IMG/VR virus record: IMGVR_UViG_3300043773_002340
Location: 1 to 64,000 of that record
Reading direction: 5' to 3' (one strand)
Length of the DNA: 64,000 nucleotides
From: a virus
Part shown: one piece after another, positions 56,759 through 63,268 of the stretch
Numbering within the stretch: the first letter of the stretch is position 1
How the letters are laid out: every line of letters begins with the position of its first letter
Position numbers and translations under genes: made by a program
Notes under the pieces: generated by a model
What the model was told of the DNA's origin: nothing
Database searches by the model: none
Seen by the model: only the letters and a program-made list of their open reading frames with translations

Positions 56759-57814
56759 TCAGGCCAGAATGTTGGTGATCATCGCGCCAGAACCGATCAG
56801 ACCGGTGGTGCCAAGGCCCACAGGGTGCACAGCGCGCTCGACGGTGATCTCAGCGCGGACCACGCGACGCTCACGGATGTAGTACTCAGGACGCACGGCA
56901 GGGGTGCCGGTCAGCTGGTAGGTGTAAGCGAAAGCCGGAGTAGCGGCGTTAGCACCACCAGCAGGCATCACAGCGTCAGAAGGACCATTCGGGCTATAGA
57001 ACAGCAGGACGCCGTTCTCAGGGAACACGGGCAGCAGCTGACCGTTCTCGGCCAGATAACGACCCTCAGCCACGCGGATGCCGCGCTCCAGACCGAAGTA
57101 ACGAGCAAGCATGTCCACGTCGATCGAATCGGCGGTGGTGTACTTGATACGCTCGAGGATGCTCTGGTTGGTCAGCAGTTGGTCGAAGATCGCAGTACCA
57201 ACGATCATCGAGTTCGGGCGGATGCCGATCTGGTAGGAGACGGCACGCTTTAGGGTCAGAACAGCTTCGATCGGGTTCGAAGTGGGGTCGCTCCAAGGAG
57301 CAGCACCAGCAGCGGCACCGTAGGAAGTCTCAAACTGAGTGAAGGTCTCGAAACCGAGGCCGGTCTGGGAACCAGGAACGCCGCTGTAAGGCTCGTAAGG
57401 GTTGAAGGAACCGGTCACGGTCACGACTTCAGCCACGGTCTTCTCGTAGGCGTTCATCAGGCGGGACATGGCGTTGCGAGTTTCGATCGCACGCAGGTCA
57501 ACCTGAGCAGGACCTTCGCCGGCGTTCTCGATGACTTCTTCGGGAAGTTCCCAAGCCACCACTTCCTGTTCCAGGGCGTAGGGCTCAGAATCGTAACGAG
57601 TCTGAACGTAAGGGATGTTGGTGCCATATGCACGACGGAAGTCGTTGATGGCGAACTGCTCTTTGCCGAAGCGCAGGATGCGGCCGGCACGAGTCGGAGT
57701 ATCCACAACAGGCGCGATGAAGTTCGCGATGTTGGTGGAGGGGAGCATGAAACCTTGTGCCAGCGTAGTCAGAATAGGATCTACGCCCGCATAGGTTTGG
57801 GCTAGGTTCATCAT
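56759..57814 (-). CDS. Major capsid protein (Mu gpT-like)
   Basis: The product is 351 residues. It matches the Mu-like/HK97-fold major capsid proteins: LPSTNIANFIAPVVDTPTRA near the start, IENAGEGPAQVDLRAIETRN around the spine helix, then GIRPNSMIVGTAIFDQLLTN and YFGLERGIRVAEGRY in the A-domain. It forms the icosahedral shell. Two adjacent ATG codons (57814 and 57811) could both serve as starts. The upstream GGAG lies in a GGAGTACTCC palindrome, and the 100-base leader holds a long hairpin. It is flanked by the decoration and tail-tube genes. The FAE-type cleavage tripeptide is absent from this protein. Confidence 0.92.
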   Translation of the reverse strand: MMNLAQTYAGVDPILTTLAQGFMLPSTNIANFIAPVVDTPTRAGRILRFGKEQFAINDFRRAYGTNIPYVQTRYDSEPYALEQEVVAWELPEEVIENAGEGPAQVDLRAIETRNAMSRLMNAYEKTVAEVVTVTGSFNPYEPYSGVPGSQTGLGFETFTQFETSYGAAAGAAPWSDPTSNPIEAVLTLKRAVSYQIGIRPNSMIVGTAIFDQLLTNQSILERIKYTTADSIDVDMLARYFGLERGIRVAEGRYLAENGQLLPVFPENGVLLFYSPNGPSDAVMPAGGANAATPAFAYTYQLTGTPAVRPEYYIRERRVVRAEITVERAVHPVGLGTTGLIGSGAMITNILA

Positions 57815-57916: not shown

Positions 57917-58345
57917 TCAGCTGAACGAAACTGTCACCATACGGCGACCACCGATGTCGATGAGATCGCGAATGGTGGGCACAGTGCCGTCGGCTTGAAC
58001 AGCGGTGCCGGAAGCCGAAGCTTGACCGATGGCATTCACCAGCAGGGGGCTGTTGAAGGCGATAGGGCCGGAAGCGGGATCCACTTCGATCAGCAGCAGA
58101 CCGGATGTGGCGACAGTGGCCAGACGGGGGCTGGCAGGAGCGTCAGCGAACAGGGGGATGAAGGCTTGGTTCACACCCAGGATGGTGGTAGGAGTTGCGC
58201 CAGGCAGGGTGCAGATGCCCATGGAGGCACCCGCGCTCACGGCACGGAATTCACCGATGGCGACGGAAGGGTCGGCGGTGAAGGTTTCGGCGAAACGGAT
58301 GTACTGCTTGCCGTAAGCAGGAGCAGCGTTAGTCGAAGTAAACAT
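57917..58345 (-). CDS. Capsid decoration/cement protein
   Basis: The product is 142 residues. The small beta-rich sequence (AIGEFRAVSAGASMGICTLP, ILGVNQAFIPLFADAPA, LLLIEVDPASGPIAFNSPLL) has the short-strand, glycine- and alanine-rich pattern of DUF2190-like capsid cement proteins. Those are encoded directly upstream of Mu-like major capsid genes, as here. Such proteins bind the outer capsid surface and stabilise it. One FAE tripeptide occurs at residues 18-20. The gene has its own GGGTAAAA motif 57 bases upstream and precedes the capsid gene by about 100 bases that carry the hairpin. The assignment rests on synteny and pattern. Confidence 0.75.
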   Translation of the reverse strand: MFTSTNAAPAYGKQYIRFAETFTADPSVAIGEFRAVSAGASMGICTLPGATPTTILGVNQAFIPLFADAPASPRLATVATSGLLLIEVDPASGPIAFNSPLLVNAIGQASASGTAVQADGTVPTIRDLIDIGGRRMVTVSFS

Positions 58346-58410: not shown

Positions 58411-59184
58411 CTATCGGTACTCAATTCGACACCTGCAGCGGTCATAGCACCGACAGCCCTTGCCGGGCATCGGAAGCGAGCCGAGAGGCTGCCATCCTGA
58501 AGCGTCGTAGTTTTTGCAGTCAGGACACACGCGTGGGTCGTGTCTCGAGATTCTCCTCATCTCCTTGTATCCACCATCCTGTTTGTCCATAAAGACGCCC
58601 AGTTGGAAGAAACTGTAAGCGGGAGAAGAGACGTAGCGAAGAACACGACCGAACAAAGAAGGCCAGGTCTTACCGACCGCCCTTTTCTGAGTCGTCTCAA
58701 TGGAGGCCTGCTCAGCGGGTGATGTATCCATCCACTCTTCCGGAAAATCCGGGTCAAGATCGGGATCCACGTCTAAAACTCGGTTGAGATCAGGATCGGC
58801 AAAATCGAGAGAGTCGTCTCCGTATTTGAGAGTGCCATCATCTAAATAGTCCTTGGTTTCTTTTAGGAAGACGTTAAGAGGAGGGAGCATGTCGCCGACG
58901 ATCGACGGCCACGCTTTCTCCATTTTTTCTTTCGGCCGACCGCTGCCCGCTCCGAGATAGACCGCCGCGAGAGCAGAAGTGAGGGTTTTGTCTACGAGAG
59001 CACGTTCGTACTCATCGAATTTCATCTGTCGGTCACGAAGACCTTTGACGATGACTCGACCCTCAGCCTCCATCCTCGCCTCCAGCTTGCCGAGGTCTGG
59101 ATATTTTTTAGCCAGACGCTCAGCTTGCTTGTAGTAGGTCTCTCTCTGACGGGTGGCTAGGCCAACCATCGAGAGAAGATCCAT
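58411..59184 (-). CDS. Head morphogenesis protein (Mu gpF / SPP1 gp7-like)
   Basis: The product is 257 residues. The N-terminal half is helical and charged (QRETYYKQAERLAKKYPDLG, RQMKFDEYERALVDKTLTS). The C-terminal 60 residues (EMRRISRHDPRVCPDCKNYD, GSLPMPGKGCRCYDRCRC) match the signature of the Mu F/SPP1 gp7 family, a cysteine-rich ending with a CxxC and a P...CRC element. Those minor head proteins act at the portal vertex during head assembly and DNA ejection. It starts beside the protease stop and lies between the protease and the decoration gene, the expected Mu-like place. It is somewhat shorter than the family norm. The call is confident from the C-terminus. Confidence 0.83.
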   Translation of the reverse strand: MDLLSMVGLATRQRETYYKQAERLAKKYPDLGKLEARMEAEGRVIVKGLRDRQMKFDEYERALVDKTLTSALAAVYLGAGSGRPKEKMEKAWPSIVGDMLPPLNVFLKETKDYLDDGTLKYGDDSLDFADPDLNRVLDVDPDLDPDFPEEWMDTSPAEQASIETTQKRAVGKTWPSLFGRVLRYVSSPAYSFFQLGVFMDKQDGGYKEMRRISRHDPRVCPDCKNYDASGWQPLGSLPMPGKGCRCYDRCRCRIEYR

Positions 59185-59185
59185 C

Positions 59186-61762
59186 TCAGGAGTACATTGC
59201 CTTCTTCAGGGCCTCGACGTAGTCGAGCTCGCCGCCAGACTTCTCTACCATCGAGAGAGCCTTTTGGTGAGGGTCCAGGTCCACCTCATCCACGAACTTC
59301 ATGGAACCACCAGCGTACTCGCTGAAGTCCACCAGGTTGGGAAGACGATCCAGGATGCTGAACAGCAGGCCAGTGGCGGTCTCACCTTCGGAGAACTCCA
59401 TGGTGCCGAACTCCAGACCTTCAGCGAACTCCATGAGTTTTTTCTCGGGGATGATGGAATCCACCATCTTGCCTTGCTCATAGAGACCTTCGACGAAGCT
59501 GTGAATCTGATCGCGACGACGAGCGATCTGAGCCTCACGGTACTCGTGCTTGATGCGAGCGTTCTCGGCTTTCAGGGCCTGCAGCTCGGCGTAGAACTCA
59601 CTGAACTCCTCGGACTCCGAGTAGTTCATCTTCTTGCCACCCTTCTTGCCGCAGTCCTCTCCCATTTCCATCTCATCTTCATCGTAGTCGCACCCTTCTT
59701 TGTAGGTGGATCCGAATCCGGTCTTGGAGTAGGGGTTCTGGTCCTTCTCATGCTCGGCATAGCCGGTGCTAACACCGCTGGGGCCTGTCTCTTCAGCCAC
59801 GCCACCTTCGAACTCGCCCGAGAGCATGTCCTTCTTGGAACGGGGCATGCCAGCTTGAGCATCGACTTCGTTGTGGTCTTCGGCGAAGTGACCCTTTTCT
59901 TTCACTTCCATCGCACGCTTTTTCAGCGCGGGGGGAAGCTTGTCCATCTTGCTCTCGGCATGATCATCGGACATATGCTCCTCTTTCTCCTTCATCTTTT
60001 TCTTGATGAAGTCGGGCATTTCCTTGTGGTCGGCACCGCCGGTCACGCCGGAAGGACCTGTCACCTCTGCGGGCTCTTCGTCCTCATCGGAGTCGAAAGC
60101 ACCAGGAGTCAGGGCTTTCTTACTGGACTTGGGCTCACCTTTGTAGGACTCAGCGTGCTCAGCGTAGACTCCACCGGACTTCAGAGTTGTCTCGTTAGGA
60201 CCACCCTCGAACTCGCCGGAGAGTTGCTTTTTCTTGCCTTCGGCATAGACGCCTTCCTTGCCAGTCACCTCAGCAGGCTGGGGCTCGGCATAGTCAGCCA
60301 TCACGGAACCAGGGATACCACCACCGTGAGACTTGGGCATCTTCTCGCCGCCCTTGATGTACATCACACGAGCGTTCTTGGCCTTAGCGACGTTCTCCAC
60401 GCCAACGGCGAAGATCTCGTCATCGGGCATCTCTTCGGTCTCAGTTGGGACCTTGGTCTCACCATCGACACGACCAGCAGGATTGCTGCCGGAGGCTGCT
60501 TCAGCATCGTTGACGCCGTAATCCACGTCGTCATCGTACTGGTTGTTGTTCATCATTTGATCGCGACTCATTTCGTCGTACCGTCCTTCATCGTCAGGGT
60601 CAACATAACGACCGGTCTTACGACGGTCTTCTTCGATCTCATTGTTCTTGGCAGGGGGACGACCAGCGTCATGCTGCTCTTTGCCAGTCGAGATCTTGTC
60701 ACGGCCGAAAGTGGCCTTTTCAGGAGTGGTCTTGCCTGTTTTGTAACGATCGGCCTGCTGCTCACCGCTCTTGGCGGTTTCGTAGCGGTCGTCGCCGTTG
60801 TAGCCGCCTTTAGGGCCGCCTTCGGCGTAGTTCACCTTGCCGGGCTCCATGCGGGGATTCCGCATTTTGGGAGCGTCGGCGCCACGCTCTTCGTGGTCAG
60901 TGTGCATTTCGTCTTCGTCTTCTTTGTAGACGTTCTCAACCACCTGCGACACTTGGCCGTGGGGGGTTTTCTTCTTTTTCCGGCTGATGCCTTGTTCTTC
61001 CATGAATTCGTCCTTAGGGAACTGGTCTTCAAGATCTGCGACTGACCGAGCGTTATCCCCACGGCGTGGGCGTTCGGAAAAGTTTGCAGGGTTGCTGGGG
61101 TTTTCGATTTCGGATGCGTTGTCCTCTTGCTCCTCCACCTCAGCCGACGTGTCTTCCACTTTCTGTTCCTCCGGAGTTCCGACGGCGTCCGCGACAGCGG
61201 CACGCATCTCACCCCTGGCGAGATCAAGTTTCTCCTTGAGCATTTCAAGGGGACTCAAGTCACGAACGAGAGTTGGTCCCAGGTCCTTGTCAAACACCGT
61301 CATCGGATCGATGGCTACGGCGAAGTCATAGACTCCGACGCGCTGATCCCATTCGGCAAAATTGAAGGGTTCCAAACCTTTCACCGCAGGGGGAGCGGCA
61401 CCAAGCAGCGCCAAATGGCGAGCGGTCCACTTTCCGGGATGCGGATTGATTTGGGAGTCTGGGGAGTAGAAGGAGATAGACACCTTTCGATAGTGTCCAT
61501 CTTTCACCAGGTCTTTCGCTACGTCAGTAAACGCAACGTTTGCGTACAGGTTATCACCCTGACGTTCAAAGCCTTTGATCCACCCGTATGAAGGCAGACT
61601 ATCAGAGTCACCCTGATGACCAAGCACAAGAGGTGCTTCGTGAATCTGGGGATCGTAGGAGGCAACGACCTGGTCTAGGTCTTTGGCACTGAAGCTTCGG
61701 GCCACACCCTGAGCTGACGTTTGATCGCCAGCCATAAACACATGAATGCGTTTTTGGAACAT
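59186..61762 (-). CDS. Mu gpI-like prohead protease fused to a long acidic scaffold
   Basis: The product is 858 residues. Residues 1-150 match the Mu I protease (HVFMAGDQTSAQGVARSFSA, HEAPLVLGHQGDSD, KVSISFYSPDSQINPHPGKW, TARHLALLGA). By analogy with this fold, H49 and a serine in KVSISF (95 or 97) are likely catalytic. Residues 200-700 are acidic, repetitive and probably disordered, with LSGEFEGG twice and TGPSGV twice. Residues 715-750 form a coiled coil, and the C-terminus is a short helical domain, as in phage scaffolds. [FY][AS]E occurs 14 times. Mu I has about 360 residues, so this is more than twice as long. It follows the portal gene. Confidence 0.88.
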   Translation of the reverse strand: MFQKRIHVFMAGDQTSAQGVARSFSAKDLDQVVASYDPQIHEAPLVLGHQGDSDSLPSYGWIKGFERQGDNLYANVAFTDVAKDLVKDGHYRKVSISFYSPDSQINPHPGKWTARHLALLGAAPPAVKGLEPFNFAEWDQRVGVYDFAVAIDPMTVFDKDLGPTLVRDLSPLEMLKEKLDLARGEMRAAVADAVGTPEEQKVEDTSAEVEEQEDNASEIENPSNPANFSERPRRGDNARSVADLEDQFPKDEFMEEQGISRKKKKTPHGQVSQVVENVYKEDEDEMHTDHEERGADAPKMRNPRMEPGKVNYAEGGPKGGYNGDDRYETAKSGEQQADRYKTGKTTPEKATFGRDKISTGKEQHDAGRPPAKNNEIEEDRRKTGRYVDPDDEGRYDEMSRDQMMNNNQYDDDVDYGVNDAEAASGSNPAGRVDGETKVPTETEEMPDDEIFAVGVENVAKAKNARVMYIKGGEKMPKSHGGGIPGSVMADYAEPQPAEVTGKEGVYAEGKKKQLSGEFEGGPNETTLKSGGVYAEHAESYKGEPKSSKKALTPGAFDSDEDEEPAEVTGPSGVTGGADHKEMPDFIKKKMKEKEEHMSDDHAESKMDKLPPALKKRAMEVKEKGHFAEDHNEVDAQAGMPRSKKDMLSGEFEGGVAEETGPSGVSTGYAEHEKDQNPYSKTGFGSTYKEGCDYDEDEMEMGEDCGKKGGKKMNYSESEEFSEFYAELQALKAENARIKHEYREAQIARRRDQIHSFVEGLYEQGKMVDSIIPEKKLMEFAEGLEFGTMEFSEGETATGLLFSILDRLPNLVDFSEYAGGSMKFVDEVDLDPHQKALSMVEKSGGELDYVEALKKAMYS

Positions 61763-61852: not shown

Positions 61853-63268
61853 TCAACCAAAGATTTCGTTGTAGAGATCATCATCGTCAGATGATTCTGA
61901 AACGGCTTCATCTTCGGTTATTTTCTCATCTCCAAAGGGTTTCTCTTCACCGCCGAAGATCTTGTCATAGAGATCACCGTCTGCCTCAGGATCGTAAGAT
62001 TCTGGAGTTCCTTCGACCTCAGCTTGAGGCGCCGCGGCTTGGAAATCCTCTTCATCGGCTAGGTCAACTTTGAAGTGATTTTGAATCCATTCTTTCTTCG
62101 GTTTGTAGCCCGACTGAATCATTAGGCTCACGTCAGCCATCGTCAAGGTGGATTCTTCGAGACGGAATTGACGACTGATTGTTGGTGCCTCGACATTGAC
62201 ACCGAAGTTCAGATCGACGATCCAGCGGATGAGGGTGTCGCTCAAAGTCTGTGAAATCAGCTGGGAAAGCTCGGAAGCGCGGATGACACGGACCAAGTTT
62301 GCCACCTGAGAAGAAGCACGAGAGCCAGCTTCGGCTGTGCCTGCTTCATCCTCACCACACACCAACAGGGAAATCTCCTTGTCGATGTACTCGATGAGAT
62401 TCATGAAGATATCAGCTGAACCTGACGGATTGAGGAATTCGAGTTCGTATCCCTCAGGTAGAATCATCGCTGTCTCTTGAGACAGGTTGGAGAGGTGGTC
62501 GTACAGAGTGTCGATCTCAACATTGGAGGCTGAGAGAGGAGCTTTTGCGATCGCGGTTGGCGTTGCGTAACGATCGCCGTACAGAACATAAGACTCGATA
62601 GCACGACGACGAAACTTAACGATCGGATACAGAATCCTGCCCAGTCCGGTACCATAGGGATCTCCAGTGTGCGAGAGCCAATAACGTTGAATGATGAACT
62701 TGCGAGCGGGAAGCTCGATGCCTTCAAACATTCGGTTGAAGGTCAGCACACGCATTGTGAAACCGGTGTCGGCTTCTTCCGATTCCTGGAACACAAAACG
62801 ACGCTGGTCGCGGATGCGAACATCAAATGGGATGATGCCCTGTTTCGTCTTCTTCCACATCACCTCACCGACGGAGAATCCACAGACGAGCGCCTCACCG
62901 AGTCCTTTGTAGAGATCGTCAATGTCGAGAGAGGAAAGTGCCTGCTCAACGTAGTCCTTGACGGCAAGATCGCCCGGCTTTTCGGAAGCGGGGGTGATGA
63001 GCCAGTCTCGGGCTGTGATCTCCTGCATCAGTTTCATGAACGACGCCTGGACTGAAGAGTCCCACAGTAGTCGTTTGTAGATGACGAGGGCGCGGTTGCC
63101 GCCCTTCTGAATGATGAGGTCGTCATCAGGTCTGACAATGGTGTTCCCCTGTCCCGTGAAGGGAGAGGAACTGCCGAACATGTAGATCGACGATAAATTG
63201 TACGGATCGGTTGTATACTTAGCGACTTCACCCTGTGGAACGGGCGGGATTTGGAAACGTTTCGCCAT
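61853..63268 (-). CDS. Portal protein (Mu gp29 / DUF935-like)
   Basis: The product is 471 residues. The sequence (LVIYKRLLWDSSVQASFMKL, RDWLITPASEKPGDLAVKDY, VCGFSVGEVMWKKTKQGIIP, RFVFQESEEADTGFTMRVLT, RKFIIQRYWLSHTGDPYGTG) follows the DUF935 portal family of Mu-like phages closely. The portal is the dodecameric ring through which DNA is packaged and released. The C-terminal 80 residues are acidic (ESYDPEADGDLYDKIFGGEE), with the motif LYDKIFG/LYNEIFG repeated at the end. The start overlaps the gp25-like stop by one base. It is intact, and the call is confident. Confidence 0.93.
   Translation of the reverse strand: MAKRFQIPPVPQGEVAKYTTDPYNLSSIYMFGSSSPFTGQGNTIVRPDDDLIIQKGGNRALVIYKRLLWDSSVQASFMKLMQEITARDWLITPASEKPGDLAVKDYVEQALSSLDIDDLYKGLGEALVCGFSVGEVMWKKTKQGIIPFDVRIRDQRRFVFQESEEADTGFTMRVLTFNRMFEGIELPARKFIIQRYWLSHTGDPYGTGLGRILYPIVKFRRRAIESYVLYGDRYATPTAIAKAPLSASNVEIDTLYDHLSNLSQETAMILPEGYELEFLNPSGSADIFMNLIEYIDKEISLLVCGEDEAGTAEAGSRASSQVANLVRVIRASELSQLISQTLSDTLIRWIVDLNFGVNVEAPTISRQFRLEESTLTMADVSLMIQSGYKPKKEWIQNHFKVDLADEEDFQAAAPQAEVEGTPESYDPEADGDLYDKIFGGEEKPFGDEKITEDEAVSESSDDDDLYNEIFG

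Follow-up and report, generated by a model that had tools for sequence, protein, structure and literature searches.

We found that an 858-residue protein encoded in the viral DNA analysed here (the window, 64,000 nt of a virus record of 71.9 kb) carries 14 copies of the tripeptide [FY][AS]E. We consider it probable (roughly 80%) that these are redundant candidate sites of autocleavage, at which a gpI-type head protease would release itself and shred its own scaffold. The motif is real and is a trait of the Mu gpI-like family rather than unique to the window phage. In more distant relatives, phage Mu among them, the tag appears to be spelled differently.

Translation of the window placed the open reading frame (ORF) on the minus strand, from an ATG at 61762 to 59186; all features described below lie on this strand unless otherwise stated. 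The protein matched PF10123 (Mu-like prophage I protein; E 3.7e-6, 27.1 bits against a cut-off of 25.2) and phrog_976 (head maturation protease; E 1.2e-61). We annotated it as a head maturation protease of the Mu gpI type that is joined to a scaffold in one chain (59186..61762), in agreement with a sequence-only reading that had called it a gpI-like protease/scaffold. The portal protein, which is of Mu type, is encoded upstream (61853..63268; PF06074, E 1.2e-68), and the major capsid protein at 56759..57814 (phrog_1005, E 5.8e-50). The window order of portal, protease/scaffold, small decoration-like protein (57917-58345) and major capsid protein is that of the Mu gpI type. The closest named relatives are the cyanophages S-CBWM1 and S-TIM5, and the local gene order in S-CBWM1 resembles that of the window. 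A sequence search found no relative of solved structure. An internal in-frame scaffold start is annotated in Mu, B3 and RcapMu.

Two neighbouring frames were also noted. The first (58411-59184, minus strand) encodes a 257-aa protein ending in a Cys-rich tail (CPDCKNY...CRCYDRCRC) that, by eye, recalls MuF-type minor head proteins; S-CBWM1 gp171 has the same position and the same length. The second is a 630-aa open frame antisense to the scaffold (59153-61045, plus strand), which is most likely no gene but a side effect of the E/D/K-rich coding strand.

On recounting, the 14 [FY][AS]E tripeptides were found to end at residues 137, 230, 314, 493, 508, 535, 628, 670, 716, 722, 726, 781, 792 and 815, exactly as listed in the sequence-only reading, and its hand estimate of about one expected copy was borne out by the value of 1.06 computed from composition. 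None of 20,000 shuffles of the 858-aa protein gave more than 6. YAE, with six copies, is the commonest tripeptide in the entire protein, so the motif is conspicuous even without prior choice. The flanks of the 14 sites are mutually unlike and their codons vary, so the sites did not arise by recent duplication. For comparison, the 43 other non-overlapping window ORFs of at least 100 aa contain 16 copies in total against 9.0 expected, with no more than two in each.

To model the protease domain, we ran AlphaFold2 on residues 1-152 with a 103-sequence alignment and obtained a mean pLDDT of 81. The top Foldseek matches of the domain (residues 1-130; 61373..61762) were all herpesvirus proteases (best E 2.7e-3), and VIA gave Z 8.8 for the VZV protease (1vzv) and Z 8.3 for T4 gp21 (5jbl). 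These scores are modest, but the top ranks consistently belong to one superfamily, and we predict an assemblin fold of the herpesvirus protease/T4 gp21 superfamily. His49 (61616..61618), Ser95 (61478..61480) and His116 are invariant in an alignment of 104 E-type relatives. We presume from fold and invariance that His49 is catalytic; Ser95, which never varies among the E-type, A-type and Mu-clade rows, is the presumed nucleophile, and Arg115-His116 (61415..61420) would provide the third catalytic residue and its neighbour. Residue 115 is Arg or Lys in 104/104 E-type proteins and Asn in LspJY19 and L240_1.

The full-length AlphaFold2 model (17 sequences) was of low confidence overall and largely without structure between about residues 180 and 717. 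We assigned a mostly disordered scaffold region to residues 180-713 (59624..61225), with low pLDDT over most of its length, and a helical scaffold core to residues 714-858 (59189..59623), with predicted helices at 718-762, 773-785, 796-806, 831-841 and 848-857. Most motif sites fall in predicted disorder. The first site after the protease domain (...PPAVKGL....FAE), FAE137 (61352..61360), lies in a linker (residues 130-141) with pLDDT below 50 in the model of residues 1-152, and is the candidate site for separating protease and scaffold. Near the C terminus, YSE716 (59615..59623) stands just ahead of the helices and FSE792 (59387..59395) in a loop between them. YAE726 (59585..59593) and FAE781 (59420..59428) are within predicted helices; together with FSE722 (59597..59605), these sites in or at helices count against the cleavage reading.

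Homologues are encoded at 33 IMG/VR loci. The sequence-only reading had suggested aligning homologues to see whether the tripeptides are conserved, their loss in close homologues being a refutation; in the alignment they were kept. Almost throughout, the homologues retain F-x-E at 137 (FAE or FSE in those covering it), and likewise the motifs ending at 493, 792 and 815: the Glu of YAE493 (60284..60292) is present in all of them, FSE792 is FSE in every covering homologue, and FSE815 (59318..59326) is FSE or FGE in every covering one. YAE314 (60821..60829) is replaced by HAE, HSE or YKE in relatives, and YAE508 (60239..60247) and FAE628 (59879..59887) are kept only in the close clade. The remaining candidate sites taken from the motif count and the homologue alignment are FSE230 (61073..61081), YAE535 (60158..60166) and YAE670 (59753..59761). 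Relatives of about 50% identity each carry 12-18 [FYH][ASGCT]E sites, of which roughly half have no counterpart at that position in the window protein, and their substitutions mostly stay within the rule (YAE to HAE, FAE to YCE or FSE, and also FSE to FKE or FGE). A preserved number of sites at shifting positions is the pattern expected of cleavage sites. In the same clade, the P1 Glu/Asp was retained at 0.75 at motifs against 0.60 for other Glu, and the P3 aromatic at 0.81 against 0.72 for other scaffold aromatics; the latter is just moderately above background, so conservation by itself is not decisive.

This uneven conservation bears on a narrower form of autocleavage, compatible with the main reading, in which only a few sites (137 and the well-kept 493, 792 and 815) are cut and the rest are tolerated or serve as rarely used back-ups. 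It would account for the difference between these four, kept in nearly all homologues, and 508 and 628, and sites in stable helices may indeed be protected. However, the number of sites stays high despite turnover, and the propeptides of phiKZ and SPN3US carry redundant sites, with at least three cut in SPN3US gp53 (PMC9026906, PMC10052503). We regard this restriction to a few sites as a real but minority possibility.

To place the motif in the family, we searched IMG/VR, GTDB genomes and phage records for relatives and reduced the earlier finds to 163 proteins below 75% identity. The family as a whole diverged too far to be collected with a single alignment, and narrower queries were used. 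Of the 163 proteins, 113 repeat a single [FY][ASG]X motif at least four times, against 2.0 in shuffles. When all tripeptides in the scaffold part of 130 proteins were ranked, FAE, FSE and FGE came second to fourth, and the first, VEF, is a left extension of the same motif. Outside the window group, [FYH][ASG]E occurred 585 times against 71.7 expected, and the pooled counts were 521 against 44.9 for Phe and 51 against 11.3 for Tyr at P3, and 177 against 47.4 for Asp at P1, with Ala, Gly and Ser favoured at P2; these pooled family counts include sites inherited at aligned positions and are not independent. In all non-Mu proteins, Val/Ile is favoured at P5, Glu/Ser/Asp at P4 and Gly at P1'. The enrichment is also seen in B3 (8 against 0.41) and PhiKM (7 against 0.41).

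Within the window/cyanophage group, the predicted sites favour Phe (53 observed, 6.9 expected), Tyr (43, 7.3) and His (34, 4.3) at P3, where Leu is depleted (1, 11.1) and the small residues give 9 against 20.9 for Ala, 11 against 21.4 for Gly and 22 against 16.3 for Ser. Ala (74, 6.6) and Ser (40, 5.1) prevail at P2, and Glu (130, 18.6) at P1. The sequence-only reading had proposed an aromatic-[AS]-E rule as a new variant that would shred this scaffold during maturation. The motif itself stands; its exact spelling was too narrow, and our refined rule, drawn from the alignments, is Phe/Tyr/His at P3, Ala/Ser/Gly (with some Lys/Val/Cys) at P2 and Glu at P1. Nor is it a peculiarity of one phage, being common across the Mu gpI-like family. 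The idea of a self-cleavage motif is supported in part, and P1 differs in some lineages.

These lineages respell the tripeptide. In the LspJY19 clade the repeated form is F-A-A (at P1, Ala 30 against 5.0 expected and Glu 2 against 1.9), in the Mu clade it is L-[ST]-A (LSA 30 against 1.6), and D3112 weakly favours [ILV][AST]A (7 against 2.6). In an unbiased scan of protease-domain columns, column 128 gave the best split between proteins with an acidic P1 and those with a small P1 (uncorrected Fisher value 1.5e-10, phylogeny ignored). Lys or Arg at this column goes with 136 acidic-P1 and 3 small-P1 proteins; other residues go with 2 acidic and 8 small, plus six Mu-clade proteins, Mu itself being uncertain here (gapped in one alignment, Thr in another). 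The exceptions are L347 and L339, with Ala128 and Glu sites, and L240, with Lys128 and Ala sites; as a post hoc remark, L240 shares Asn115 with LspJY19. A tree built without the columns beyond residue 124 gave about seven changes at residue 128 and about six of P1, with two supported independent pairs, too few for a phylogenetic test. Another nine prophage proteins, added later, have Lys128 without exception and sites in which Glu dominates, which is consistent but offers no contrast. The last-residue switch hits many sites of a protein together and tends to accompany a change at residue 128.

From these patterns, we speculate that the Mu gpI family has a built-in evolvable cleavage code. [F/Y/H]-small-[E/D] would be its dominant form, and lineages would respell most sites in concert with the protease, with Lys128 (61379..61381), a candidate specificity residue, reading the P1 acid together with Arg115, so that specificity could be predicted from sequence alone. 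We hold this tentatively, at a little under even odds, and the evidence that such a code co-evolves and is read by Lys128 is no more than suggestive. Separately, a prophage protein from the alphaproteobacterial search (L357) has a gpI-like scaffold with about six tandem SPVTSAS-type repeats, possibly another spelling, and no FAE-type sites. In three prophage proteins with Glu at position 128 (L372_0, L376_0 and L393), there was no clear repeated tripeptide.

In the mechanism that we propose, the procapsid would assemble around the scaffold before cutting starts, and the protease would then free itself by cutting the linker at FAE137. Many redundant scaffold sites would be cut after Glu (P1), and the small pieces would leave ahead of DNA packaging. 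The capsid and portal proteins, being free of the motif, would stay uncut: it was absent from the major capsid and portal proteins of the window and of S-CBWM1, and from the major capsid protein of S-TIM5. Here we infer cleavage itself, the cut after the third residue, its timing and the exit of the fragments.

Two other proteins with motif matches were looked at as well. The small decoration-like protein contains a single FAE close to its N-terminus (QYIRFAETF), shared by the close homologues that cover it and by S-CBWM1 gp172; this FAE might serve as an isolated trimming site or belong to the fold. S-CBWM1 gp174 was rejected as a substrate: it has four matches with weak enrichment (p 0.006) and appears by eye to be a folded HNH nuclease.

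Several lines of evidence point to autocleavage. The enrichment in this ORF has no comparable counterpart in the 43 others, the preferences at P3, P2 and P1 are sharp in the window/cyanophage group, the motif recurs family-wide, and the first site lies in a disordered linker after the protease domain. The fold resembles that of T4 gp21 and of the maturational proteases of herpesviruses, enzymes that perform this very task. Related proteases cut after Glu motifs, namely L/I-X-E for the T4 prohead protease acting on head proteins and S/A-X-E for phiKZ (PMC9026906), and A-X-E for SPN3US (PMC10052503), and have redundant propeptide sites. In the Mu-like phage PaMx73, mass spectrometry identified 13 virion proteins, and the protease-scaffold is absent from those described (PMC4378225); for JBD30, the authors report scaffold cleavage and a probable exit through capsomer pores (PMC11445458). 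Finally, the last-residue switches are concerted (F-A-A in one clade, L-S-A in Mu) and tend to go with residue 128.

Alternatively, the tripeptides might be short binding motifs that are never cut, attaching the scaffold to the capsid protein, to itself or to another head part, and repeated for avidity. Disordered scaffolds can use repeated short motifs for binding, and the location of some sites inside the helical core would suit such a role. Against this, the tripeptides start directly after the protease domain, which is not what one would expect of a motif that binds the capsid. Their last residue agrees with the P1 of the T4, phiKZ and SPN3US prohead proteases, and where it changes, it does so at many sites at once, mostly along with residue 128 of the protease. 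We think binding improbable. The enrichment could also be put down to composition, together with duplications inside an E-rich protein of low complexity or with shared ancestry: Glu makes up 12% of the scaffold, in which the phrases LSGEFEGG and AEVTG are repeated. This is ruled out as a full account, and is highly unlikely altogether, given the expectation of about one copy, the unlike flanks and codons, the turnover of positions while the number of sites is kept up, and the recurrence in most of the family, including B3 and PhiKM.

In the open-access literature that we searched, we found nothing on the cleavage specificity of Mu-type head proteases. If the autocleavage reading is right, aromatic/His-small-Glu would be a further Glu-P1 prohead cleavage spelling beside the T4, phiKZ and SPN3US rules. 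Should the code be real, sites become predictable and testable at once in more than 100 phages and prophages. A protease fused to a substrate with a dozen redundant sites would preserve a natural history of how protease and substrate co-evolved, with what look like switches between a Glu type (T4-like) and an Ala type (herpesvirus-like) inside one family.

Among known systems, Mu gpI/gpZ shares with the window protein an N-terminal protease and C-terminal scaffold in one ORF between the portal and capsid genes, and the protease domains are homologous. Unlike the window protein with its aromatic-small-Glu tripeptides, Mu repeats L-[ST]-A, and at 361 aa its protein is much shorter. T4 gp21 has the assemblin-like fold and Glu at P1, as do the predicted sites of the window group, but its P3 is Leu/Ile, whereas the window group has Phe/Tyr/His and is depleted in Leu. 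T4 gp21 also cuts the T4 capsid protein, while the window capsid protein lacks the motif. In phiKZ gp175 and SPN3US gp245, Glu at P1 and redundant sites are likewise shared; their P3 is small, in contrast to the aromatic or His P3 and small P2 of the window group. The herpesvirus maturational proteases (assemblin; UL26/UL26.5 type), the best fold matches of the modelled domain, are fused to a scaffold with a release site, and their sites are aliphatic-X-Ala, cut before Ser, with few per protein. The window protein differs in its aromatic-small-Glu spelling and many sites; the L-[ST]-A of Mu looks closer to the herpesvirus rule.
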